From: Thermoleophilia bacterium
GTDB lineage: Bacteria; Actinomycetota; Thermoleophilia; Gaiellales; Gaiellaceae
Length of the DNA: 9,469 nucleotides
Assembly (NCBI GenBank): GCA_016844515.1
Contig: JAERMP010000066.1
Coordinates: forward strand, 1-9,469
Reading direction: 5' to 3'
The notes beneath the pieces were generated by a model, which worked only from the letters and a program-made list of their open reading frames with translations, ran no database searches and had not been told where the DNA came from. Shown here piece by piece: positions 1-9,469 of the stretch (within the stretch, counting starts at the first letter, position 1; each line of letters opens with the position of its first letter). The translations under genes and the position numbers were made by a program.

Positions 1-588
1 GATGAGTGCCGGCTCGAAATCCACGAGCGTTTCCACGTCGCCGAAGAGTCGCTTCGCCTGTGGCCGCCGGTCTGTGTCGAGGAGGGGAAGCACGAGCCGC
101 TCGAACTCCGCGCACTGGTCGTGGTAGGCCTCGACCCAGTCGGGACGCTCCATAGGAAGCCCGGACGGGTCGAGCGCATGGAGTACCTCGAGGAACGCAC
201 GAACCCCGTCGGCGTCCTCGTCGACCAGCGGCTGACCGGGGATCAAGTGATAGCCGACGAAGAGCGGATTGCGCGAGATGTGCTCGAACGAAGGGACATC
301 CACCGGGAGTGCAGGAGCGAGCGCCGGCAGCACCACGATCTCGACCTCGAGCGCCTCTTCGACGGCGGCGCGCCGCGGAAAGCGGAACACCCAGTCGTCG
401 TCGACGATCGCTACCTCGAAGTCGTACCCGCCATCGATCTCAAGAATCGTTTTCGGGCTGCGTCCAAGCGCGTCTGCGATCAGCCCCTGGCGCTCGGTAG
501 TCACTCCCTGATGGTGTCTGACAGCGCTTGGCGGCGTCGGAGCGACGGTCTTGGCCAAGTCCGTCAGGTGACGGTCCTCGGGGGACAT
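1..588 (-). CDS. Phosphotransferase (APH/choline kinase family), 3' end beyond the window
   Basis: This is a 196-codon open frame without a stop, running leftward off the window edge. The translation has the N-lobe of an aminoglycoside-phosphotransferase-like kinase: GGYDFEVAIVDDDWVFRFPRR (residues 53-73, the nucleotide-binding beta sheet with the FRFPR motif), then LPALAPALPVDVPSFE (88-102) and the GYHLIPGQPL hinge segment (112-121). It ends at FEPALI, exactly where family members continue into the catalytic HGDL...N motif, so the active site lies outside the window. The family phosphorylates hydroxyl groups of small molecules with ATP or GTP; the substrate cannot be told. The start is uncertain. 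ATG at 588 (MSPEDRH) sits inside repeat copy A with no good Shine-Dalgarno sequence; ATGs at 639/642 and GTG at 504 are in frame. It is divergent from the next gene, which belongs to the same broad family but is not a close copy. Confidence 0.85.
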   Translation of the reverse strand, partial: MSPEDRHLTDLAKTVAPTPPSAVRHHQGVTTERQGLIADALGRSPKTILEIDGGYDFEVAIVDDDWVFRFPRRAAVEEALEVEIVVLPALAPALPVDVPSFEHISRNPLFVGYHLIPGQPLVDEDADGVRAFLEVLHALDPSGLPMERPDWVEAYHDQCAEFERLVLPLLDTDRRPQAKRLFGDVETLVDFEPALI

Positions 589-605
589 TCCCGCACACTC
601 GCGCA
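581..605 (+). repeat. Dispersed boundary repeat, copy A
   Basis: Reads GGGGACATTCCCGCACACTC followed by GCGCA. It lies between two divergent phosphotransferase genes and overlaps the first codons of the left one (MSP is encoded by its complement). It matches copy D at 21 of 25 positions, copy B at 20 of 25, and copy E at 17 of the first 19. All copies point the same way. Confidence 0.75.
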
Positions 606-660
606 ACGCACGATGCTCCTGCTGGGAGCGCACTGGCATCATCGTGGGCGGCTCATGGCC

Positions 661-1575
661 ATGGGCAAGATGCACGCAGACGAGATACACACCGACGTAT
701 CTCTCGTGGGCCGATTGCTCGCGACGCAGTTTCCGCAGTGGGCGGGACTTCCGATCGAACCGGTGCCATCCGCCGGGACGGACAATGCGCTCTATCGGCT
801 CGGCGATGACATGGTCGTGCGGCTACCGCGCAGGGAGCGGCCCAGCGGGACACTGGAGAAAGAACGCCAATGGCTGCCGATACTCGCTCCGCTCCTGCCG
901 CTGGCAGTCCCGGTCCCGCTGGCAGACGGGATGCCCGCCGATGGCTATCCCTTCGACTGGTCTGTGTACCGATGGCTAGAAGGCGAGGACGCGACCACGG
1001 TGCGTGTCACCGATCCGAGCCAATTCGCGATCGATCTGGCGCAGTTCGTTGCCGCGTTGCAGCAGATCGATCCCGCAGGCGGCCCGTCCCCCGGGGAGCA
1101 CAACGTCTTCCGCGGTGTACCGCTGGCAACGCGAGACGCTGGGACTCGCGGCGCGATCGGTTCCTTGCGCGGCGCGATCGACGTGGGAGCGGTGACCGCG
1201 GCGTGGGAGTCAGCCCTTCGGTCGCCGGAGTGGGAGCACCCGCCTGTCTGGATCCACGGGGACCTCGACTCACGAAACCTGCTGGTCGAAGACGGACGGC
1301 TGGGCGCCGTCATCGACTGGGGGTGTCTCGGCGTGGGCGACCCCGCGTGCGACGTGATGGTTGCGTGGAAGGTCCTCTCCGCGGACACGCGCGACCTCTT
1401 CCGGACCGCGCTCTCGGTCGACGAGTCGACCTGGGCGCGCGCTCGCGGCTGGGCGCTTTCCCAGGCGCTGGTGGCCCTGTCCTACTACACCCTGGAGACG
1501 AACCCCGTGCTCGTCCTGGAGGCTCGACGATGGATGGCCGAGGTACTCGCCGACCACGCGTCAATGTCTCCCTGA
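661..1575 (+). CDS. Aminoglycoside phosphotransferase family kinase
   Basis: Complete 304-residue protein, the normal size for this family. Residues 40-58 carry the N-lobe strand pair (TDNALYRLGDDMVVRLPRR), and LPILAPLLPLAVPVPLADG (72-90) follows. The catalytic loop is IHGDLDSRNLL (198-208) with base D201 and metal ligand N206. The DFG-equivalent is IDWG with D219, then GDPACDVMVAW (226-236). Every residue needed for ATP-dependent phosphotransfer is present. The substrate is unknown: such proteins in soil actinomycetes are often called resistance enzymes, but many act on other metabolites. ATG 661 (MGKMHADEI) was chosen because GGGCGG at 646-651 lies 9 nt upstream and relatives begin similarly; ATG 655 or 670 are alternatives. 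The frame stays open back to 121, but that part is antisense to the neighbouring kinase gene. It occupies the interval between repeat copies A and B alone. Confidence 0.9.
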   Translation: MGKMHADEIHTDVSLVGRLLATQFPQWAGLPIEPVPSAGTDNALYRLGDDMVVRLPRRERPSGTLEKERQWLPILAPLLPLAVPVPLADGMPADGYPFDWSVYRWLEGEDATTVRVTDPSQFAIDLAQFVAALQQIDPAGGPSPGEHNVFRGVPLATRDAGTRGAIGSLRGAIDVGAVTAAWESALRSPEWEHPPVWIHGDLDSRNLLVEDGRLGAVIDWGCLGVGDPACDVMVAWKVLSADTRDLFRTALSVDESTWARARGWALSQALVALSYYTLETNPVLVLEARRWMAEVLADHASMSP

Positions 1576-1625
1576 CTCGCCCTTCTCGTGTTCGGTCCCA
1601 GTCTTCAGACGAGCTGAGGCGCTCA

Positions 1626-1650
1626 AGAGACATTCGTGAACACTCGCGCA
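1626..1650 (+). repeat. Dispersed boundary repeat, copy B
   Basis: Reads AGAGACATTCGTGAACACTC followed by GCGCA. It lies in the 91-bp gap between the stops of two convergent genes (kinase and acetyltransferase). With copy C it forms a subgroup sharing GAACACT and a trailing CAGGC; B and C agree at 20 of 25 positions. Confidence 0.75.
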
Positions 1651-1666
1651 GGCCGAGTTCCTGATC

Positions 1667-2116
1667 TCAGTCGGCGAGTGACGGAAGGTGGATCAGCCCG
1701 GCGTCCGTCGGGCGAAAACCGCACGCATCGAAGTAGAAGGGTGCCAGGTCGGCCTCAAAGTCGACGTGTAGCCACTCGCATCCTGCGGCCTTGGCGTGCT
1801 GCGCTGCGACGTGGACGACCCGCGTTCCTATGCCCTTGCGTTGGTGAGCGCCGTGCGTCTTTGTGTCGATGACAAAGGCATGGTCTCCACCGTCAGAGAC
1901 GACGTTGACGAAGCCGACGAGACGCCCGCCGACATCGCGGGCAGTGACCCAACCCAGACTGTGTGGACGGATTCGATTCCACCAGCCGACCTCGGCGTTT
2001 CCGCCATGGGCATTGACTAGTTCAACCATCTCCGCGTCGGTCAACGGGCCGCGCCAGCGATACGTGACGCCGTCGGAGACGAACTGTGGTCGAACAGCGG
2101 GCGAAGCCAAGAACAA
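1667..2116 (-). CDS. GNAT-family N-acetyltransferase
   Basis: A 149-residue single-domain GNAT protein. It has the acetyl-CoA pyrophosphate-binding loop QRKGIGT (residues 92-98, the Q/RxxGxG/A motif A) at the start of the helix VVHVAAQHAKAAG, then strand WLHVDF (115-120), and a motif-B segment APFYFDACGFRPT (125-137) with Tyr128 near the usual general-acid position. The family moves acetyl from acetyl-CoA to an amine; the acceptor is unknown. The start is TTG at 2116, since a TGA codon lies directly upstream in frame. TTG at 2110 is possible, and the first ~16 residues are poorly conserved-looking, so the true N-terminus is unsure. It faces the upstream kinase tail to tail and lies alone between repeat copies B and C. 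Confidence 0.85.
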   Translation of the reverse strand: MFLASPAVRPQFVSDGVTYRWRGPLTDAEMVELVNAHGGNAEVGWWNRIRPHSLGWVTARDVGGRLVGFVNVVSDGGDHAFVIDTKTHGAHQRKGIGTRVVHVAAQHAKAAGCEWLHVDFEADLAPFYFDACGFRPTDAGLIHLPSLAD

Positions 2117-2120
2117 TCAG

Positions 2121-2126
2121 ATTATC
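2121..2126 (-). promoter_or_regulatory. Candidate -10 box of the acetyltransferase gene
   Basis: On the minus strand this reads GATAAT, four bases before the TTG start. No clear -35 is visible. It would imply a nearly or fully leaderless mRNA; there is no Shine-Dalgarno sequence to favour another reading. Confidence 0.3.
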
Positions 2127-2147
2127 CAGGTCCGTCTCTGCCCCTCG

Positions 2148-2172
2148 GGTGACATTCGCGAACACTGGCCCA
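2148..2172 (+). repeat. Dispersed boundary repeat, copy C
   Basis: Reads GGTGACATTCGCGAACACTG followed by GCCCA. It lies between the divergent acetyltransferase and hydrolase genes. It contains the perfect 8-bp palindrome TTCGCGAA (2155-2162), which other copies lack, so the palindrome is probably not the conserved function. Confidence 0.7.
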
Positions 2173-2274
2173 GGCGGCGCAGCTCACCCCTGGACGTCTG
2201 TACGTATCGGGCCGCCGGCATGACGGTGGGTGCCACCATCGTTGCGGCCTGGTCTGCGAGATTCGAGGCGTGAT

Positions 2275-2280
2275 TAGAGT
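2275..2280 (+). promoter_or_regulatory. Candidate -10 box of the hydrolase gene (leaderless)
   Basis: TAGAGT (fits TANNNT) ends 7 nt before ATG 2288. The intervening GGCGTCC has no ribosome-binding site, so the transcript would begin at or next to the start codon. No convincing -35 was found. Confidence 0.4.
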
Positions 2281-2287
2281 GGCGTCC

Positions 2288-2860
2288 ATGGCCGAGGTAC
2301 TGCTGTTTCACCACGCACAGGGGCAGACCGAAGGGTTCCTCGCCTTCGCCGACGAGCTGCGGGCTGCCGGCCACGTGGTACACGCCCCCGACCTGTACGA
2401 CGGAAAGACGTTTGCGGAGCTCGCCGATGGGGTCAGCTACGCGGAGCAGGTCGGTTTCGACGTGATCATCCAACGAGGTGCGGCCGCTGCGGAGGGTCTG
2501 CCGGCCGACATCGTCTACGCCGGCTTCTCTCTGGGCGTTCTACCGGCACAGATGCTCACCCAGACGCGTCCCGGTGCTCGGGGGGCGCTGCTGCTGCACG
2601 CGTGCGTTCCGACCTCGGCGTTCGAGGCTCCCTGGCCCGACGGCGTTCCCGTGCAGATCCACGCGATGGACGCCGACGAGTGGTTCGAGGAGGACCTCGC
2701 TGCTGCCCAGGGGCTCGTCGCCGAGATCCAGAACGCCGAGCTGTTTCTCTATCCAGGGAACGGGCACCTGTTCGCCGATAGCAGCCTGAGCGACTTCGAC
2801 CAAGAAGCAGCAGCGCTGCTCAAGGAGCGCACTCTCGCTTTCCTGGAAGCCGTCGGATAG
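2288..2860 (+). CDS. Dienelactone hydrolase family alpha/beta hydrolase
   Basis: A 190-residue protein with the compact dienelactone-hydrolase layout. It has first strand EVLLFHHAQG (residues 3-12), then HAPDLYDGKTF (32-42), nucleophile elbow GFSLG (79-83) with Ser81 where classical DLH has Cys, strand VQIHAMDADEWF (122-133) carrying the candidate acid Asp128 or Asp130, and YPGNGHLF (155-162) with the candidate catalytic His160. It should be a soluble cytoplasmic hydrolase acting on a small ester or lactone; the substrate is unknown. ATG 2288 was chosen over GTG 2270 because MAEVLLFHHA is the usual family start and a -10-like box sits 7 nt before it. It lies alone between repeat copies C and D. 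Confidence 0.88.
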   Translation: MAEVLLFHHAQGQTEGFLAFADELRAAGHVVHAPDLYDGKTFAELADGVSYAEQVGFDVIIQRGAAAAEGLPADIVYAGFSLGVLPAQMLTQTRPGARGALLLHACVPTSAFEAPWPDGVPVQIHAMDADEWFEEDLAAAQGLVAEIQNAELFLYPGNGHLFADSSLSDFDQEAAALLKERTLAFLEAVG

Positions 2861-2893
2861 CGGACGGTGGCGTAGGTGAGGGCGGCGCGGTCG

Positions 2894-2918
2894 AGAGACA
2901 TTTCCGCACGCTCGCGCA
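2894..2918 (+). repeat. Dispersed boundary repeat, copy D
   Basis: Reads AGAGACATTTCCGCACGCTC followed by GCGCA, 33 bp after the hydrolase stop. The similarity to copies A and E may run past the core into an AAGCATGGTC-like stretch. The rest of the gap to 3069 shows only a short hairpin (CTCCT-TGC-AGGAG, 3031-3043) ahead of the next gene's ribosome-binding site. Confidence 0.75.
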
Positions 2919-3056
2919 AGCATGGTCTTTGATCCTCGACCATGAAACCCGGCTGTGTTGCGAACCTATGCTTCTCAGGCCTTCGGAAATCCATGCGGCG
3001 CGCTAGCTTGTCTCCACGCCCGTGTTTCAACTCCTTGCAGGAGCCCGGCATCGGTG

Positions 3057-3063
3057 AAAGGAG
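3057..3063 (+). promoter_or_regulatory. Ribosome-binding site fixing start 3070
   Basis: AAAGGAG, six bases before ATG 3070. This is the clearest Shine-Dalgarno sequence in the left half, so this gene has a leader while several neighbours appear leaderless. Confidence 0.7.
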
Positions 3064-3069
3064 CAGTCC

Positions 3070-3384
3070 ATGAAGAAGAGGCTCGTGACGCGCTACGCGA
3101 TGCGGTCGGCTGAGGCAGCGAATGAGAACCAGCGACGAGTCGAAGGGGTCTTCGATGAACTGGCCGCTGCCAAGCCTGACAGCGTGAGCTACATAGTCCT
3201 CCGGCTCGCGGATGATTCCTTTGTGCACGTGTCTTTCCACAACCACGGCGATGACGAGGTGAACCCAATCGCTTCGACGGCTGCGTTTGCGCGTTTTCAG
3301 CAGGACCACGCCGACCGCCGCGAGGGCGGCGTCGACCAGCAGACCGCAGAGCTGGTCGGTGCCTATATCACCACTATCGACTGA
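3070..3384 (+). CDS. Small protein, probable dimeric alpha/beta-barrel fold
   Basis: A 104-residue soluble protein without signal peptide or membrane segment. The pattern is strand (KRLVTRYAM), helix (EAANENQRRVEGVFDELAAA), strand (SVSYIVLRLADDS), strand (FVHVSFHN), then helix (TAAFARFQQDHADRR) and a last strand (ELVGAYITTI). This beta-alpha-beta-beta-alpha-beta order, with the FVHV and F..FQ positions, is typical of small dimeric ferredoxin-like barrel proteins common in actinomycetes and related in fold to the ABM monooxygenases. No catalytic residue can be assigned, so the function is unknown. The start is supported by AAAGGAG six bases upstream. It sits alone between repeat copies D and E. 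Confidence 0.75.
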   Translation: MKKRLVTRYAMRSAEAANENQRRVEGVFDELAAAKPDSVSYIVLRLADDSFVHVSFHNHGDDEVNPIASTAAFARFQQDHADRREGGVDQQTAELVGAYITTID

Positions 3385-3426
3385 GCCCCATCCCGCCCCG
3401 GAGCTGCAGCACGCCGGGCTGAAACG

Positions 3427-4572
3427 TCAGGGGACACTCCCGCACGCTGGGGGCACGCAACGGATGATCGTCCTAGGGAGGGGTAGCTCCCCTCCACCTT
3501 CGGTGCAGTCGGCGAGGTAGAGGGCTGTGCCGAGGTCGCCAGTCCAGAGCGTGTAGCGGCCGCGCCCGTAGTCCGACCGACTGTGCTCCACCTGACCTGC
3601 AGCGTGCATCGCGAACGTGCGCGCTCGCGTGAGCCACCGTTCGTCTCCCGTGCGCTCGAGCAGCGCCAAGAATGCGTATCCGTTCCCCGCTGTGCCGTGG
3701 CAGAGGTTTGCGCCCTTTCGCAGCGGCCCAGCACGCCACGTCAACTCGCCGCCCGCAACCGCAAGCTCCTCGTCAAGCATGTGGGCGAGCGTCGCGACGA
3801 TCCCCGGCGCGCCATGGCACCACTGCGTGCGGATCTGGCCGTCGCGGTTTGCGTCGAGTCGCATCCCCGCGCGTCCCGGCCAGTTGACGAGCCCATCCGC
3901 CTCGACGGCAAATCGCTGGAGCGTCTCCGAGACGGCGGCGACATCGCCGAGCGCGAGCACACACCCTGCGAAACCGTGTGCCGGACCGAGATAGCGGGTG
4001 GTATGTCCATACAGTTGCTGCGTCCACAGGCCGTCGGGGTCACGTCGGCCGTGCAACCACTCGATGCTCGCCGTCACGTCGAGCCCGAGCTCGCGACCCG
4101 CGAGAATCGTGCCGGGACTGCCCCACATCAATTCGCAACGTTCATCTCGCTCGTTCGCCGCGATCAGCTCCGACAGCCGCTCGAGATTGGCCTGCGAAGG
4201 TGCGAGCCTCTGTAGCACCAGCCGGATGCCCATCTCGCCCCCCCAGAGGCTGCGCTCGGCGTCCTCGTCTGGAAAGTCTGGCTGGGCTTCGAGCGAACGC
4301 TCCAAGTACGGGACATAGTCCCGTCGTAACTCGACGAAGCCCCGCCGCGCGAGTCGGTGGAGCGCATCCACGACACCTGCGCCTCCGAGATACACCGTCC
4401 GAAATCGCGTCGACGCGTCGTCTTCCTCGATGACGTCCTGCGGATGCGTCGGCCACCCGTCGTCGAAAGCGCTCTCCGCGTCGGCAACGATCGAGGCGAT
4501 CGCGGTTCGCGCCCTTTCAGCGCTCCACGGCGCGTCCGCGAGCGCCTCGTGCGCTTCCGGCGAAAACAGCAT
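3427..4572 (-). CDS. Stand-alone LanC-like (lanthionine synthetase C-like) zinc protein
   Basis: A 381-residue protein with the repeated GxxG turns of the LanC alpha/alpha toroid: YLGGAGVV (61-68), WGSPGTI (150-156), GPAHGFAG (196-203), WCHGAPGI (251-258) and LCHGTAGNGY (290-299). By comparison with NisC, the zinc ligands are Cys252, Cys291 and His292, and His199 matches the catalytic His; all are intact. LanC proteins add Cys thiols to dehydrated residues to close thioether rings; LanC-like proteins elsewhere add glutathione to dehydrated residues. No precursor peptide, dehydratase or exporter lies in the window, so the partner is unknown. The last ~14 residues (RTIIRCVPPACGSVP) do not look like family sequence and are encoded largely by repeat copy E. 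ATG 4572 was preferred because a -10-like box precedes it and the upstream frame overlaps the Nudix regulator gene. Confidence 0.88.
   Translation of the reverse strand: MLFSPEAHEALADAPWSAERARTAIASIVADAESAFDDGWPTHPQDVIEEDDASTRFRTVYLGGAGVVDALHRLARRGFVELRRDYVPYLERSLEAQPDFPDEDAERSLWGGEMGIRLVLQRLAPSQANLERLSELIAANERDERCELMWGSPGTILAGRELGLDVTASIEWLHGRRDPDGLWTQQLYGHTTRYLGPAHGFAGCVLALGDVAAVSETLQRFAVEADGLVNWPGRAGMRLDANRDGQIRTQWCHGAPGIVATLAHMLDEELAVAGGELTWRAGPLRKGANLCHGTAGNGYAFLALLERTGDERWLTRARTFAMHAAGQVEHSRSDYGRGRYTLWTGDLGTALYLADCTEGGGELPLPRTIIRCVPPACGSVP
3430..3455 (+). repeat. Dispersed boundary repeat, copy E
   Basis: Reads GGGGACACTCCCGCACGCTG then GGGGCA, with one extra base relative to the others in the right half. 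It overlaps the 3' end of the LanC-like gene: that gene's stop codon (3427-3429) directly abuts the repeat. It matches copy A at 17 of the first 19 positions. Confidence 0.65.
3477..3495. terminator. GC-rich perfect hairpin inside the LanC-like 3' end
   Basis: GGAGGGG-TAGCT-CCCCTCC is a perfect 7-bp stem with a 5-base loop, within the last codons of the LanC-like gene (GGGELPL). It lies 93 bp after the stop of the convergent small gene, so it could end plus-strand transcription. It has no T-run on either strand, so calling it a terminator is tentative; it may be only a codon-level coincidence. Confidence 0.3.
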
Positions 4573-4578
4573 CGGGCG

Positions 4579-4584
4579 AGTCTG
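4579..4584 (-). promoter_or_regulatory. Candidate -10 box of the LanC-like gene (leaderless)
   Basis: On the minus strand CAGACT lies six bases before ATG 4572, with CGCCCG between and no ribosome-binding site. A TTCAAC-like -35 (complement of 4601-4606) has a 16-base spacer but is weak. Confidence 0.35.
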
Positions 4585-4594
4585 ACGCCGGTTC

Positions 4595-4612
4595 GGGGAC
4601 GTTGAACACGAG
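4595..4612 (+). repeat. Possible degenerate sixth repeat copy
   Basis: GGGGACGTTGAACACGAG recalls the left half of the boundary repeat (GGGGACATTC.CGAACAC) with a gap of a few bases. It falls between the LanC-like gene and the regulator, at the boundary position expected for a sixth copy. The similarity is too weak to be sure. Confidence 0.2.
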
Positions 4613-4617
4613 AGTAT

Positions 4618-4672
4618 TGGTCGACAAGACCAGAACCAGCTGCTACGGTAAGAGTCGTGACGACCAGAACCA
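4618..4672 (+). promoter_or_regulatory. Candidate operator: inverted and direct repeats before the Nudix regulator
   Basis: TGGTC-GACAA-GACCA (4618-4632) is a perfect 5-bp inverted repeat. In addition GTCG-N4-GACCAGAACCA occurs twice, at 4620-4638 and 4654-4672, exactly 34 bp apart, the second copy covering the start codon. These flank the candidate -10 box, as expected for an autoregulated repressor. The second copy is partly coding, and no known NrtR site was recognised. Confidence 0.4.
4644..4649 (+). promoter_or_regulatory. Candidate -10 box of the regulator-oxidoreductase operon
   Basis: TACGGT lies seven bases before GTG 4657, the same spacing as in the hydrolase gene, suggesting a leaderless operon mRNA. 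TTGGTC (4617-4622) is a poor -35 candidate and overlaps the inverted repeat. Confidence 0.35.
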
Positions 4673-5421
4673 ACGATCCCGGAGTGCCGGCGGACTACGA
4701 CCCATCGCAGTTCCCGGCGTTCGCAGTGACGGTGGATGTGGTGATCCTGACCATGTCCGAAGGCACGCTGCACGTGTTGCTCGTGCGCCGTGGGGAGGCG
4801 CCGTTCGAGGGGATGTGGGCGATCCCGGGTGGCTTCAAGCGTCCCACCGAGACGTTGGACGAGGCTGCGAGGCGGGAGCTGGCCGAGGAGACGGGTGTCG
4901 ATGTGCCGAGCTTGCTCACCCAGTTCGGTGCCTATGGCGATCCTGAGCGCGACCCGCGTCTGAACGTCGTCACGATCGCGTATCTCGCAGTGCTTCGCGA
5001 CGTGGGGGAAGTCGAGGCGGGCACGGATGCGGCAGACGCCGCCCTCGTCCCGGCGTCCGACGTGCTCAACGAGAGGATCAACCTAGCTTTCGATCACCTG
5101 CGGATCGTGCGCGATGCCGTCGAGCGCGTTCGCGTCGAGCTCGAGGTCTCGGGGATCGCGACGGCGTTCGTGGGAACGACGTTCACAATGGCCGAGCTGC
5201 GGGCGGTGTACGAGGCCATCTGGGGCGTGCAGCTCGACGCTGCGAACTTCCGTCGGAGCGTCGTCGCGGAGGACGGTTGGGTCATCCCGACCGGGCGCCG
5301 GGCTCGGCCCGGCGCAGCCGGCGGCAAGCCGGCGGAGCTCTATCGAGCGGGGCGGATGTGGAAGCAGGGCGGACCGATCCGGTTCCCGCAACCAGCCGAG
5401 AAGCGAAAGGGAACGAGATGA
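4657..5421 (+). CDS. NrtR-type regulator: Nudix domain plus winged helix
   Basis: 254 residues in two domains. The N-terminal Nudix domain (about 20-135) has strands FAVTVDVVILT and LHVLLVRRGEAPFEGMWAIPGG, then a complete Nudix box G59-x5-E65-x7-R73-E74-L75-x-E77-E78-x-G80-V81. The C-terminal part (about 140-245) is the winged helix of the NrtR group: FTMAELRAVYEAIWG, AANFRRSV and the wing ending KPAELYRAG (224-232). Known NrtR proteins bind ADP-ribose or related nucleotides and repress NAD-cofactor genes. Here the box is intact, so hydrolysis of ADP-ribose or another nucleotide diphosphate is also possible. The start is GTG 4657 (MTTRTNDPG), probably leaderless. Its stop overlaps the first oxidoreductase (ATGA), making it the first gene of that operon and its likely autoregulator. 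It diverges from the LanC-like gene. Confidence 0.9.
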   Translation: MTTRTNDPGVPADYDPSQFPAFAVTVDVVILTMSEGTLHVLLVRRGEAPFEGMWAIPGGFKRPTETLDEAARRELAEETGVDVPSLLTQFGAYGDPERDPRLNVVTIAYLAVLRDVGEVEAGTDAADAALVPASDVLNERINLAFDHLRIVRDAVERVRVELEVSGIATAFVGTTFTMAELRAVYEAIWGVQLDAANFRRSVVAEDGWVIPTGRRARPGAAGGKPAELYRAGRMWKQGGPIRFPQPAEKRKGTR

Positions 5422-6386
5422 GAGCAGTTGTGTACGACAGATACGGGCCACCGGAGGTGCTACGACTCGAAGAGGTCGAACGGCCGGTACCACGGGACGA
5501 CGAGGTCCTCGTCAAGATCCACGCCACGACGGTCACCCGGACGGACTGCGGAATGCGCGGCCCCGAGCCCTTCTTCGCCCGCATCTTCACCGGCCTCCTC
5601 CGACCGAAGCGAAGGATTCTCGGCATGGAGCTGGCCGGCGAGGTCGAAGCCGTTGGCGCAGCCGTCAGCGAATTCGAGGTCGGCGACGAGGTCTTCGGCG
5701 TCAAGGGCTTCGGCGCACACGCCGAGTACGTCTGTATTCGAGAGAGCGCCGCGCTGGCGCACAAGCCACCCGGCATGACCTTCGATGAGGCCGCCGCGAT
5801 CAGCGACGGACCGAGCATCGCACTGGCGTGCCTGAGAAAGGCCGACCTCCGTGAGGGGCGCAGCATCCTCATCTACGGCGCCTCGGGATCCATCGGAACC
5901 GCAGCAGTGCAGCTGGCCAAGTCCTTCGGCGCCCACGTCACCGCGGTGTGCGACACGAAGACCCTCGAGCTCGTGAGGTCGCTCGGCGCCGACGAGGTGG
6001 TCGACTACACGCAAGAAGACTTCACGAAGAACGGCGAGACGTACGACGTCATCTTCGACGCCGTCGGCAAGCACTCGTTCAGGCGGTGTAGACGCTCACT
6101 GAAGCCGGGCGGGATCTACATCGAGACCGACCTCGGATTCATGTGGCACGTCCCGCCGCTGGCCTTGCTTACGAGATGGTTCGGGGACAAGCGGGTCACG
6201 CTCCCGATACCCAAGTACACGAAGGACGACGTCCTCCTCGTGAAGGAGCTCATCGAGGCGGGCAAGTACCGGCCGATCATCGATCGGACGTACCCGCTGG
6301 AGAACGTGGTCGAGGCGACGAGATACGTCGAGACTGGCCAGAAGACCGGGAACGTCGTGCTGACCCTCAACGGTGTCGTCCGATGA
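5418..6386 (+). CDS. NAD(P)H-dependent MDR oxidoreductase, paralog 1
   Basis: A 322-residue medium-chain reductase of the zinc-independent quinone-oxidoreductase type. The GroES-like half (1-125) has the typical MRAVVYDRYGPPEVL start, ELAGEVEAVG (71-80, where zinc enzymes have GHE) and GDEVFG (89-94). The Rossmann half has IYGASGSIG (152-160) and VTAVCDTKTLELVRSLGADEVVDY (174-197). It lacks the zinc ligands. Asp179 ends the second beta strand, where paralog 4 has Ser, which may favour NADH over NADPH. Thr40 replaces the usual Asn of VNxxD. The start is ATG 5418, since the regulator's TGA overlaps it and AAAGGG lies upstream; the frame is open further back but only antisense to family logic. 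Likely reduces a quinone, enone or aldehyde; the substrate is unknown. Confidence 0.9.
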   Translation: MRAVVYDRYGPPEVLRLEEVERPVPRDDEVLVKIHATTVTRTDCGMRGPEPFFARIFTGLLRPKRRILGMELAGEVEAVGAAVSEFEVGDEVFGVKGFGAHAEYVCIRESAALAHKPPGMTFDEAAAISDGPSIALACLRKADLREGRSILIYGASGSIGTAAVQLAKSFGAHVTAVCDTKTLELVRSLGADEVVDYTQEDFTKNGETYDVIFDAVGKHSFRRCRRSLKPGGIYIETDLGFMWHVPPLALLTRWFGDKRVTLPIPKYTKDDVLLVKELIEAGKYRPIIDRTYPLENVVEATRYVETGQKTGNVVLTLNGVVR

Positions 6387-6562
6387 ACGACGAGGCACTT
6401 CGACAGTTCACCCACGACCGTCGGCACGCGCGTGAGCGCGAAGCCAAGGTGGAACGCCTAGCCGCGCATGCCCGCAGCCGGCGCCCCAGCCGTGCGAGTG
6501 AGCGGGCGTCGGCAGCCGTGCTCGGGCACCTGCTGGCTGCGCGACGCCATGCGACCACGTGA
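6383..6562 (+). CDS. Small Arg-rich protein within the oxidoreductase operon
   Basis: A 59-residue ORF starting MNDEALRQFTHDRRHARERE, with its ATG overlapping the stop of paralog 1 (ATGA). It has 13 Arg, several His, and a predicted continuous helix broken at Pro35; no Cys, membrane segment or signal peptide. It is followed by 31 bp and then paralog 2. The overlap, matching the other junctions in the operon, is the main evidence that it is real. Function unknown; small MND/E..R.F..DR proteins next to regulators or enzymes are familiar in actinomycetes, from memory only. It could also be a relic of the duplication. Confidence 0.55.
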   Translation: MNDEALRQFTHDRRHAREREAKVERLAAHARSRRPSRASERASAAVLGHLLAARRHATT

Positions 6563-6593
6563 CGGCAACGACGAAAAGACCGAAGGGGAAGAG

Positions 6594-7562
6594 ATGAGAG
6601 CAGTTGTGTACGACAGATATGGGCCACCCGAGGTGCTGCGACTCGAAGACGTCGAGCGGCCCGTCCCCAAAGAGGATGAAGTCCTCGTCAAGATCCACGC
6701 CTCGACGGTCAACCGGAGCGACTGCGGACTTCGCAGCGCCGAGTATTTCATCACCCGCTTCTTCACCGGCCTCCTCCGACCGAAGCGGAGGATCCTCGGC
6801 AGCGAGCTGGCCGGCGAGGTCGAGGCAGTCGGCGCGGCCGTCACCGAGTTCAAGGTCGCCGACAGCGTCTTCGGTATGCGTGCGGGCGCGAACGCCGACT
6901 TCGTCTGCGTCCGAGAGAGCGGTGCGCTGGCACACATGCCGGCCGGCATGACCTTCGACGAAGCGGCGGCGGTCTGCGACGGCGCGGTCGTCGCATTGGG
7001 GTTCCTGAGACGCGCGGATCTCCGGAAGGGGACGAAGATCCTCGTCTACGGCGCATCGGGATCCATCGGCACGGCAAGCGTGCAGCTGGCCAGGTACTTC
7101 GACGCCCACGTCACCGCGGTTTGCAACACGAAGAACCTCGAGCTCGTGAGATCGCTTGGAGCAGACGAGGTCATCGACTACCTAGAGGAAGACTTCACCA
7201 AGAACGGCGAGACGTACGACGTCGTCTTCGACGCGGTCGGCAAGCTCTCGTTCAGGCGCTGCAGAGGGTCGCTGAAGCGAAATGGGATCTACGCCTCGAC
7301 CGACGGGCTCGTGAACCTCTTCTTGGCGTTGTGGATGTCGCGGATCGGCGACAAGAAGGTGGTGTTCCCGATACCGCGGTACAAGAAGCAAGACGTCCTC
7401 TTCCTCAAGGAGCTCATCGAAGCGGGGAAGTACCAGGCGGTCATCGATCGGACCTACCCGTTGGAGGACGTGGTCGAAGCGACGAAGTACGTCGAAACGC
7501 ACCAGAAGACCGGGAACGTCGTTCTGACGGTCAGTCGCAACGGCGCAGGAGCAATGGCGTGA
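6594..7562 (+). CDS. NAD(P)H-dependent MDR oxidoreductase, paralog 2
   Basis: 322 residues, colinear with paralog 1 and very similar to it. The start ATG 6594 follows GAAGGGGAAGAG. The codons for MRAVVYDRYG are almost identical in DNA to paralog 1, which marks this start over earlier in-frame ones. Asn40 is kept (VNRSDC). The Rossmann loop is VYGASGSIG (151-159), and the cofactor loop is VCNTKN with Asn178 where paralog 1 has Asp. AVCDG (126-130) replaces the usual VPxA before the fold. The C-terminus SRNGAGAMA differs from the others, and the end of this gene carries the AGGAG that serves paralog 3. No zinc site. Substrate unknown; a duplicated enzyme with altered cofactor loop is the simplest reading. 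Confidence 0.9.
   Translation: MRAVVYDRYGPPEVLRLEDVERPVPKEDEVLVKIHASTVNRSDCGLRSAEYFITRFFTGLLRPKRRILGSELAGEVEAVGAAVTEFKVADSVFGMRAGANADFVCVRESGALAHMPAGMTFDEAAAVCDGAVVALGFLRRADLRKGTKILVYGASGSIGTASVQLARYFDAHVTAVCNTKNLELVRSLGADEVIDYLEEDFTKNGETYDVVFDAVGKLSFRRCRGSLKRNGIYASTDGLVNLFLALWMSRIGDKKVVFPIPRYKKQDVLFLKELIEAGKYQAVIDRTYPLEDVVEATKYVETHQKTGNVVLTVSRNGAGAMA
7547..7551 (+). promoter_or_regulatory. Ribosome-binding site deciding the start of paralog 3
   Basis: AGGAG, seven bases before GTG 7559. ATG 7574 lies 22 nt away and has no site of its own, so GTG 7559, which also gives a GTGA stop-start overlap, is the better start. Confidence 0.6.
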
Positions 7563-8530
7563 AAGCGAACACGATGAGGGCGGTCGTCCACGACAGATAC
7601 GGACCGCCGGAGGTGCTACGACTCGAGGACGTCGAGCGGCCCGAACCGAACGACGACGAGGTTCTCGTCAAGGTGCACGCGACGACGGTCACGCAGACGG
7701 ACTGCCACATGCGCCGAGCGAAGCCGTTCATCTGGCGCTTCATGCTCGGACTCCTTCGACCGAAGCGGAGGATCCTGGGCCTCGAGTTCGCCGGCGTCGT
7801 CGAGGCGGTCGGTGCGGCGGTCACCGAGTTCGGGGTGGGAGACAGCGTCTTCGGCCTCCGGAACGGCTCGCACGCCGAGTACGTGTGCGTGCGCGAGGCG
7901 GGCCTGCTCGCACGCATGCCCGCCGGCATGACGTTCGAACAGGCGGCGGCGGTCTGCGACGGCATGAGTCAGGGTCTGGCCGGTCTCAGGAGCGGACACG
8001 TTGGCCCGGGGACGAGGCTCCTCGTCTACGGCGCATCGGGCTCGTGCGGAACCGCGGCCGTGCAGCTGGCCGCCTACCTCGGCGCTCATGTCACGGCGGT
8101 GTGCAACGCGAAGAACGTCGAGCTCGTGCGCTCACTCGGTGCCGACGAGGTGATCGACTACGAGCGAGAGGACTTCACGAAGAACGGCGAGACGTACGAC
8201 GTCGTCTTCGACGCAGTCGGGAAGCACTCGTTCGTCCGCTCGCGCGGTTCGCTCGCGCCAGGTGGTCTCTACGTTGCGACCGACCGCCCCTACAACTTCC
8301 CGCTGGCTTTCCTGACGAAGTGGATCGGCACGAAGAAGGTCGTGTTCGACGTCTCGGGCTACAAGCGGGAGAACGTTCTCCTCCTCAAGGAGCTCGTCGA
8401 CGCTGGGCGGTATCGAGCAGTCATCGATCGGACGTATCCGCTCGAGGACGTGGTCGAGGCGACCAGGTACGTCGATACGTGGCAGAAGACCGGGAACGTC
8501 GTTCTGACGCTGAATGGGAGGCGAGCATGA
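7559..8530 (+). CDS. NAD(P)H-dependent MDR oxidoreductase, paralog 3
   Basis: 323 residues beginning MKANTMRAVVHDRYG, five residues longer at the N-terminus than its neighbours. GTG 7559 is chosen for the AGGAG seven bases upstream and the GTGA overlap with paralog 2; ATG 7574 would restore the family start. It has VTQTDC with Thr45 in place of Asn (as in paralog 1), the Rossmann motif VYGASGSCG (156-164) with an unusual Cys163, cofactor loop VCNAKN (Asn183), and AVCDG (131-135). The block TFTKNGETYDVVFDAVGK-like is shared with 1 and 2. No zinc site. Substrate unknown. Confidence 0.9.
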   Translation: MKANTMRAVVHDRYGPPEVLRLEDVERPEPNDDEVLVKVHATTVTQTDCHMRRAKPFIWRFMLGLLRPKRRILGLEFAGVVEAVGAAVTEFGVGDSVFGLRNGSHAEYVCVREAGLLARMPAGMTFEQAAAVCDGMSQGLAGLRSGHVGPGTRLLVYGASGSCGTAAVQLAAYLGAHVTAVCNAKNVELVRSLGADEVIDYEREDFTKNGETYDVVFDAVGKHSFVRSRGSLAPGGLYVATDRPYNFPLAFLTKWIGTKKVVFDVSGYKRENVLLLKELVDAGRYRAVIDRTYPLEDVVEATRYVDTWQKTGNVVLTLNGRRA

Positions 8531-9469
8531 AAGCGGCGGTACGAGACAGATACGGCTCGCCCGATGTCGTCGAGCTTCGGGAGATCGAGAAGCCGGTGCC
8601 CGCGGACGACGAGGTGCTGGTCCGGGTTCGCGCGGCTTCGGTGAACCCGGCGGACTGGTATGGCGTGACCGGCAGGCCGTACGTCGGCCGCGCGGCGATG
8701 GGGCTACGCAAGCCGAAAAGCAACCGCTTGGGAGTCGACTTCGCCGGGACCGTGGAGGCGGTCGGCAAGGACGTCACGCAGTTTCGACCGGGTGACGAGG
8801 TGTTCGGCGGGAGAGACGGAGCCTTCGCCGAGTACGTGTGTGTTCGCGAGGAGCGAGCGGTGGTGCCGAAGCCGGCGAACGTGACGTTCGAGGAAGCGGC
8901 GGCCGTGCCGGTGGCGGCGCTCACCGCGCTGCAGGGTCTTCGCGACAAGGGGCAGATCCAGCCGGGGCACAGGGTCCTGATCAACGGCGCGTCGGGAGGC
9001 GTGGGCACGTTCGCCGTGCAGATCGCCAAGGCGCTCGGAGCGGAGGTGACCGGCGTGTGCAGCACGAGGAACGTCGACCTCGTGCGCTCGCTCGGCGCCG
9101 ATCACGTCGTGGACTACACCCAGGAGGACTTCACGCGGAGCGACCAGCGCTACGAGTTGCTGCTCGACGTCGCCGGGAGCAGGTCGTGGCGGGCGTGCAG
9201 GCGCGTCCTCACTCCGCAGGCGACCCTCGTGATCATCGGAGCACCGAAGGGCGGCCGCCTACTGGGACCGCTGAGTCACATCATCAAGGTTCGCCTGGCG
9301 GCAGTGCGGAGCCGCCGGAAGGCCGTCTTCTTCATCGCGAAGCTGAACAAGCCGGACCTGGAGGCCCTGGGAGAGCTGCTCGCGGCCGGAAAGGTGACAC
9401 CCGTCATAGACAGGCGTTACGAGCTGAGTGAGGTCGCCGACGCCTTCCGGTACCTGGGAGAAGGGCACG
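8527..9469 (+). CDS. NAD(P)H:quinone-oxidoreductase-type MDR enzyme, paralog 4 (cut at right edge)
   Basis: 314 codons with no stop before the window ends; the family would end about ten residues later (after YLGEGH). ATG 8527 overlaps the previous stop (ATGA) with GGGAGG five bases upstream. This is the canonical family form. VNPADW (39-44) keeps Asn40, DFAGTVEAVG (71-80) replaces a zinc motif, AAAVPVAALTAL (124-135) keeps the Pro-containing segment, and the Rossmann motif is INGASGGVG (152-160). VCSTRNVDLV (177-186) has the Ser-Thr-Arg triplet typical of NADPH binding. It is clearly more divergent from paralogs 1-3 than they are from each other, so it is probably the older member, or one acquired separately. 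Likely an NADPH-dependent quinone or enone reductase. Confidence 0.9.
   Translation, partial: MKAAVRDRYGSPDVVELREIEKPVPADDEVLVRVRAASVNPADWYGVTGRPYVGRAAMGLRKPKSNRLGVDFAGTVEAVGKDVTQFRPGDEVFGGRDGAFAEYVCVREERAVVPKPANVTFEEAAAVPVAALTALQGLRDKGQIQPGHRVLINGASGGVGTFAVQIAKALGAEVTGVCSTRNVDLVRSLGADHVVDYTQEDFTRSDQRYELLLDVAGSRSWRACRRVLTPQATLVIIGAPKGGRLLGPLSHIIKVRLAAVRSRRKAVFFIAKLNKPDLEALGELLAAGKVTPVIDRRYELSEVADAFRYLGEGH

Follow-up and report, generated by a model that had tools for sequence, protein, structure and literature searches.

Repeats in a Thermoleophilia contig as putative serine-integrase attachment sites joining single-gene cassettes in an integron-like layout

Integrons, the classic example of a system that collects single-gene cassettes, use a tyrosine integrase and folded single-stranded sites. 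Here we analysed a 9,469-base stretch of DNA from a Thermoleophilia bacterium (contig JAERMP010000066.1, positions 1 to 9,469; this whole stretch is called the window below), in which a first-pass annotation had noticed a repeat at the boundaries between single genes. Judging from sequence comparisons, these repeats are most likely attachment sites at which a large serine recombinase (LSR) acts, and the window would be part of an array of single-gene cassettes that are joined by this enzyme, built by accretion and laid out like an integron. As in integrons, mostly single and unrelated genes are each followed by a co-oriented site, and a recombinase is found at one end of some arrays, many arrays being without one. 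Different from integrons are the recombinase (serine instead of tyrosine), the joints (putatively double-stranded and composed of an attP-type arm, the dinucleotide CA and an attB-type arm, written P-CA-B', instead of folded attC sites), the nearly equal use of both strands by the genes, and the presence of several short arrays per genome.

The chemistry is common to the staphylococcal cassette chromosome (SCC), the Enterococcus cassette chromosome (ECC) and the ssrA islands of Dehalococcoides, and the layout is common to integrons. According to part of PMC6222049, SCC and ECC also have serine recombinases, attL/attR flanks, several attR sites per locus and units without a recombinase; in the same part of that paper ECC elements are islands of 21–78 kb downstream of rlmH, whereas the units found here are ~0.6 kb and occupy many loci. 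In our data the sites are on many contigs of one genome (G104 and G005), not at a single rlmH locus, and the integrase described below was not identified as a Ccr protein by NCBIfam (69.5, 58.8 and 41.4 bits for CcrB, CcrA and CcrC, with cut-offs of 900, 700 and 900, respectively). For the Dehalococcoides ssrA islands, a portion of PMC3146451 describes tandem units with a common direct repeat, a serine recombinase beside attL, units without the integration module, and accretion as the proposed origin; these are, however, large islands at one locus (ssrA), with a 20-bp repeat and a six-gene integration module that has two serine recombinases. By analogy, the system here may be accretion as proposed for those island-sized elements (PMC3146451, in part), reduced to single genes. 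Serine integrases of actinobacterial phages and plasmids belong to the same protein family (plasmid relatives are at most 43% identical, one of them beside an annotated replication initiator), but there the whole element integrates. No cassette array was seen in two annotated plasmid stretches with integrase relatives, whose att sites were not scanned, and no report of single-gene cassette arrays on a serine integrase was found in open-licence PMC texts (subscription papers and most preprints being outside this scope).

Distribution and anatomy of the repeat

A 20-base core (at most three mismatches) matches the window five times, at 584, 1629, 2151, 2897 and 3433, always on the + strand; 200 dinucleotide shuffles of the window gave a mean of 0.04 and a maximum of one match. 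The five same-orientation copies of the first-pass annotation are thus borne out (5/5 on the + strand vs. 0.04 expected), and its spacings of 1045, 522, 746 and 536 bases are reproduced exactly. Its repeat of ~25 bp stands as a repeat, with the extent refined to a strongly conserved unit of 28 bp (starting at 578, 1623, 2145, 2891 and 3427) plus ~20 weakly conserved bases.

The exact 22-mer form of the repeat is found in nine contig stretches, from metagenome-assembled genomes (MAGs) labelled Actinobacteria, Actinomycetota, Thermoleophilia, Gaiellaceae and Acidimicrobiales, and the reversed pattern has no match in those nine genomes. At least one copy with three or fewer mismatches is present in 56 of the 129 actinobacterial MAGs from the order that includes G005; an even sample of the phylum gave 12 of 396, three of the 12 from that order. 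Copies are spread over many contigs per genome (34 in G104). A weight matrix scan found 160 sites of at least 12 bits in 46 sources and none in reversed sequences (sites below each scan's bit threshold are left out of all counts).

Neighbouring sites less than 4 kb apart are co-oriented in 92 of 93 pairs, and those at least 4 kb apart in 6 of 10 (contigs with two or more sites, among the sites listed; the 92/93 count covers sites listed for part of the 129 genomes plus 14 genomes examined again). In the fetched loci, which were counted separately and chosen for holding several sites, 110 of 113 neighbours are co-oriented, and the discordant pair at L053 includes the integrase's own site as the reversed one. 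L066 breaks the orientation rule, in that two sites are opposed (6864, - strand; 9258, + strand) and a tyrosine recombinase gene lies just right of the second. Among 112 intervals between sites (intervals below 150 or above 3,600 bp left out; gene calls from a simple home-made caller), 90 hold one gene, nine two, four three, one four and eight none, with a median length of 612 bp; 67 genes are on the same strand as the site and 57 on the opposite one. The first-pass annotation had proposed to check whether copies cluster, share orientation and bracket single genes; they do cluster, close pairs agree in orientation, and a single gene is the usual content of an interval.

In a logo of 145 sites, a strong arm of 26 bp is followed by CA and then by a weaker arm of ~20 bp (NGCSAGNNTNNTNNCNCYYG); CA stands at positions 27–28 in 140 of the 145. 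The motif T..C.CYYG, read outward from CA, lies five bases further out in the strong arm than in the weak arm. A portion of the paper by Rutherford and colleagues (PMC3783163) gives an identical shift of 5 bp between the attP and attB half-sites of a serine integrase, with attP half-sites of 25 bp. Since the strong and weak arms match the attP and attB geometry, this shift included, the array site reads as P-CA-B', i.e. attR-like, and the repeat has the look of an attachment site for a serine integrase, not of a repetitive extragenic palindromic (REP) sequence. GA instead of CA is found at all eight sites listed in four genomes outside the order (G442, G709, G701 and G677). The crossover dinucleotides of a pair of LSR sites must match each other and are otherwise free, with which GA sites would agree; these genomes may represent lineages with a different crossover dinucleotide.

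The linked integrase, its partner site and the array edges

Resolvase-domain proteins were found in 7 of the 12 genomes searched, and two proteins, of 462 and 467 aa, adjoin odd sites in L044 and L053. P0001 and P0002 match Pfam PF00239 (Resolvase), PF07508 (Recombinase) and PF13408 (Zn_ribbon_recom) above cut-off, and the recombinase matches the PHROG 95 integrase. The family of the 462-aa LSR has 12 copies in 11 of the 129 genomes of the order (the others are 54–71% identical to the query), and occurs in 15 of 399 genomes of a class sample that overlaps the order. Array sites are present in all 11 genomes with this LSR, as compared to 45 of the 118 others (p 5.6e-5). The annotation had remarked on the missing integrase; the window indeed has none, and in relatives a serine recombinase stands at the left end of some arrays.

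An attL-like site, B-CA-P', is found at the 5' end of all 11 LSR copies that have upstream sequence (21–46 bits). In nine of them its end directly abuts ATG or GTG; in G004 it lies one base off, and in G094 the first ATG comes 12 bases later. At unrelated LSRs of the same genomes it was found in 0 of 9 (scores of -17.6 or lower; three further LSRs were not scored), and integrase relatives at 43% and 36% identity have partner-site scores below -19. Diverged partner sites are seen at the relatives in L112 (G230; 55% identity, 12.7 bits) and L113 (G400; 50% identity, 8.4 bits), which may run arrays with a different joint sequence. Positions 13–15 of the P arm are CCC, CCT or CCG in 119 of the 145 array sites, and those of the integrase P' arm are AAC, TAA or CAC in eight of nine typed copies, the ninth (G094) having CGC, a form also present in arrays; 2 of the 145 sites have AAC or CAC, one of them being an integrase site. 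As the P and P' arms mostly differ at these positions, the arrays hold P and not P', as an accretion model needs.

Joints lie downstream of the integrase and on its strand in six copies (L044, L053, L085, L147, L149 and L151); apart from two copies taken up below, the contigs of the remaining ones end before any downstream joint could appear. Three copies (G005, G060 and G112) have a conserved gene beside the integrase, which belongs to a rolling-circle replication initiator family (by match in G005 and G112, by DNA similarity in G060). In L100 and L149 a conserved small protein also lies beside the integrase:

L100, 642–1379 and 260–595: replication initiator and small protein, respectively
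L149, 12157–12888 and 12925–13299: replication initiator and small protein, respectively

The small protein at L100:260–595 has no Pfam, NCBIfam or PHROG match, and is a candidate directionality factor. With clustering at 90% identity, at least 1,740 integrase relatives have E values of 1e-60 or lower, most of them annotated simply as site-specific recombinases; among viral contigs, no relative was confirmed.

Should the array sites be attR and the integrase's own site attL, an attL x attR reaction that removes the integrase would leave attB (B-CA-B') at the left edge of the array. This prediction was recorded before the scan, which covered 42 clusters, each with 1.5 kb or more of upstream sequence (single sites and the mirror images of two integrase sites are among them). 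B-CA-B' matches of at least 18 bits were found within 2.5 kb upstream in 15 of the 42 clusters, about one third (one of the 15 is an integrase attL), and in 0 of 42 both downstream and on the other strand; in 735 kb of reversed sequence the attB model reached 16.2 bits at most. In G081 (L171), two joints have a further attB-like edge (23.3 bits) on their left.

Similar units recur at different loci, with similarity that stops at the joint. Within one genome these are L045/L047 (94%), L082/L085 (76%; the unit is similar in full and carries a 458-aa gene) and L069/L074 (85%; one locus has a P-type left arm, the other a B-type one); between two genomes it is L075/L083 (82%). Less clean recurring units include L070/L043, L042/L043 and L045/L085. 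The gene-unit exchange that had been suggested for the window agrees with what is seen for some units, and the suggestion of such a system is supported by clustering, orientation, single genes and recurring units together. A search of the 129 genomes with the joined flanks of two arrays gave, among the matches listed, none from another genome that was contiguous across either junction. At one locus, which we take to be H+-PPase-like, G047 has an array with an attB-like edge and G050 has the integrase with attL; the spacers of three other genomes are diverged.

Proposed working and alternative explanations

We infer the catalytic steps, the circle, the role of a directionality factor and CA as the exact crossover from the sequences. 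In a joint P-CA-B', the 26-bp attP-type arm would close one cassette, CA would be the crossover, and the ~20-bp attB-type arm would open the next cassette. A small integrative element with the integrase, and sometimes a rolling-circle replication initiator, would sit at the left end of some arrays behind the attL-like B-CA-P'. This attL would recombine with any downstream attR-like joint, giving a circle that contains the integrase and the intervening cassettes and is closed by attP (P-CA-P'), while B-CA-B' (attB) would remain at the shortened array. The attB edge of another array would then take up the circle, with its cassettes, by attP x attB, such that arrays would extend from the left in a single orientation and many would end up without an integrase. 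Such a layout would follow from the standard serine-integrase reactions (attP x attB in, attL x attR out), with any of several attR joints as the partner. A bolder proposal, to which we give about even prospects, is that this is a second, independently evolved kind of integron, in which a replicating LSR element shuttles single-gene cassettes between chromosomal attB-edged arrays and takes its cargo from the genes available in an uncultured actinobacterial order; different crossover dinucleotides (CA and GA) would separate the lineages.

Several observations weigh against LSR-driven accretion. The integrase was detected in 11 of the 56 site-bearing genomes (the completeness of these MAGs is unknown), and no joint is found within ~2 kb downstream of it in L144 and L148. 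Zero or several genes are found in 22 of the 112 intervals, and neighbouring sites are discordant at G074:C205, L066 and L076. At 18 bits, 27 of the 42 clusters have no attB-like edge; at 16 bits such matches are found upstream in 19, downstream in one and on the other strand in three of the 42, and some attB-like matches lie inside arrays (L009:1105; L075:5505 and 12377). The ends of similarity are less clean in L001/L008 and L040/L043, and the crossover base is resolved only to the shared site because all sites share the P arm and CA. Finally, attL x attR recombination by LSRs is blocked without a directionality factor, according to part of PMC3783163.

One alternative keeps the same serine-recombinase cassettes and moves them integron-style: single circles would form from two P-CA-B' joints and insert at any joint, with no integrase element. 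The recurring units so far are single cassettes with different neighbours, and the lack of a detected integrase in most site-bearing genomes fits action in trans. However, according to PMC3783163, studied LSRs recombine no pairing except attP x attB, and such circles alone predict neither the attB-like left edges nor the attL-like site at the integrase, so we consider this alternative improbable.

A strict integron, with a tyrosine integrase and folded attC sites, would explain the array layout, the single genes and the intergenic joints, and tyrosine recombinases are present in 14 of 15 genomes; a few of them are near a site (L065, L066 and L067). But in 11 of 11 cases the recombinase linked to a site is of the serine type, and G002 has five sites and no PF00589 match. 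The attC boxes follow the consensus GTTRRRY/RYYYAAC, and no such pair is found in the conserved positions of the 145-site logo (folding was not run), which agrees with the absence of attC features noted in the first-pass annotation. No IntI-type gene was seen at array ends, no IntI-specific model having been run. This explanation is thus very unlikely. Tyrosine recombinases as the driver were set aside as well, as PF00589 proteins are in some cases within a few kb of sites but not regularly near them.

The annotation had also offered a REP-like repeat, i.e. an intergenic (possibly regulatory) sequence without a role in recombination. This would fit the spread of copies over many contigs and their position, with 158 of 162 sites in the fetched loci outside predicted genes (4/162 inside). 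The orientation rule, which holds for neighbouring sites but not for the genes between them, and the matching arm at the integrase speak against it; REP repeats are short palindromes with no fixed orientation of neighbours and are linked to a RAYT transposase, for which no search was made here. In addition, the similarity of recurring units ends at the site. We therefore give this alternative very little credence, and REP sequences or miniature inverted-repeat transposable elements (MITEs) are disfavoured by orientation and integrase linkage. Weakest are dif-like Xer sites (pdif-type modules), which are hardly credible: in the reverse complement of the site, TGCGC and ATGTC are spaced as in E. 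coli dif, but the arms are unequal and match the partner site of the serine integrase, a guessed actinobacterial dif pattern has 0 matches in eight genomes, and the reading is superseded by the serine integrase linkage and the unequal arms.

Cassettes of the window and cargo of the arrays

With LSR-joined cassettes as the preferred reading, the window divides as follows. Joints were scored with a 48-bp attR model that was partly trained on these same copies, and cassette limits were taken between the putative crossover dinucleotides.

1..603, gene 1–504, - strand: left-flank APH-like kinase, cut by the left end of the window (Pfam APH, 5.2e-07)
578..625, + strand: joint 1, attR-like; P arm 578–603, CA 604–605, B' arm 606–625; 47.6 bits
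606..1648, gene ~670–1575, + strand: cassette 1, APH-family kinase (Pfam APH, 4.3e-42 on 682–1575)
1623..1670, + strand: joint 2, attR-like; P arm 1623–1648, CA 1649–1650, B' arm 1651–1670; 45.9 bits
1651..2170, gene 1667–2116, - strand: cassette 2, GNAT acetyltransferase (Pfam Acetyltransf_1, 3.1e-11 on 1667–2113)
2145..2192, + strand: joint 3, attR-like; P arm 2145–2170, CA 2171–2172, B' arm 2173–2192; 48.7 bits
2173..2916, gene 2288–2860, + strand: cassette 3, dienelactone-hydrolase-like protein (Pfam DLH, 1e-11)
2891..2938, + strand: joint 4, attR-like; P arm 2891–2916, CA 2917–2918, B' arm 2919–2938; 39.3 bits
2919..3452, gene 3070–3384, + strand: cassette 4, 104-aa protein (no match in the Pfam scan; a putative small barrel protein in the first-pass annotation)
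3427..3474, + strand: joint 5, eroded; GC (3453–3454) replaces the CA of the other four; 16.1 bits

The four intervals hold one gene each, on either strand and of unrelated functions, as had been described, and the flanking genes are also as described, i.e. the kinase on the left and a LanC-like gene on the right. The left-flank kinase is probably the right part of a further cassette whose left joint would lie beyond the window. Joint 5 overlaps the 3' end of the LanC-like open reading frame, and to the right of the array the LanC-like gene is followed by an NrtR-type gene. Outside the array, at 5417–9469, there are four tandem paralogous genes (presumably zinc-independent alcohol dehydrogenase/quinone oxidoreductase-like), three of which share long repeats at 76–82% identity.

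Homologues of two window genes are cassettes between two joints elsewhere: that of the 104-aa gene in G032 (L170, joints 6765 and 6032, both - strand) and that of the hydrolase gene in G081 (L171, joints 898 and 230, both - strand). No site reaches the thresholds in the stretches that contain other copies of window genes (L173, L175, L176, L178, L180, L181, L182, L184 and L185). Among the matches listed between the window and other genomes, 0 of 121 span a joint, with 54 expected under random placement; this deficit is not counted as evidence because no match spans the site-free boundary between the LanC-like and NrtR-type genes either, and the pattern shows only that matches end with genes.

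Across the arrays, 124 cassette proteins match 118 Pfam families, the commonest being GNAT (5), nucleotide cyclase domain (4), SnoaL-like (4) and APH (3); two of the 124 are IS110-type transposases. PADLOC defence matches are scattered (at most 2 of the 124 members per model, among the 25 models listed), and no theme is claimed. IS110-family elements are known to target integron attC sites. Here, IS110-family transposons are found inside joints at fixed points (L043:11796, + strand; L179:6130, - strand; L050:7575, + strand; L057:7073, - strand), where the left part of the site runs into TGTGAGTGT, and AGGAGCAT runs into CATTCC; for three of the four junctions (L043, L057 and L179) an adjacent transposase gene was confirmed.

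If this reading is true, there is a second chemistry by which cassette arrays can form, based on ordinary double-stranded sites of a serine integrase. One order contains the same genes both as cassettes and in site-free copies, so that the system would be useful for studying how plain genes turn into cassettes. Given the number of integrase relatives, it may represent a possibly sizeable and so far unannotated route of gene exchange.

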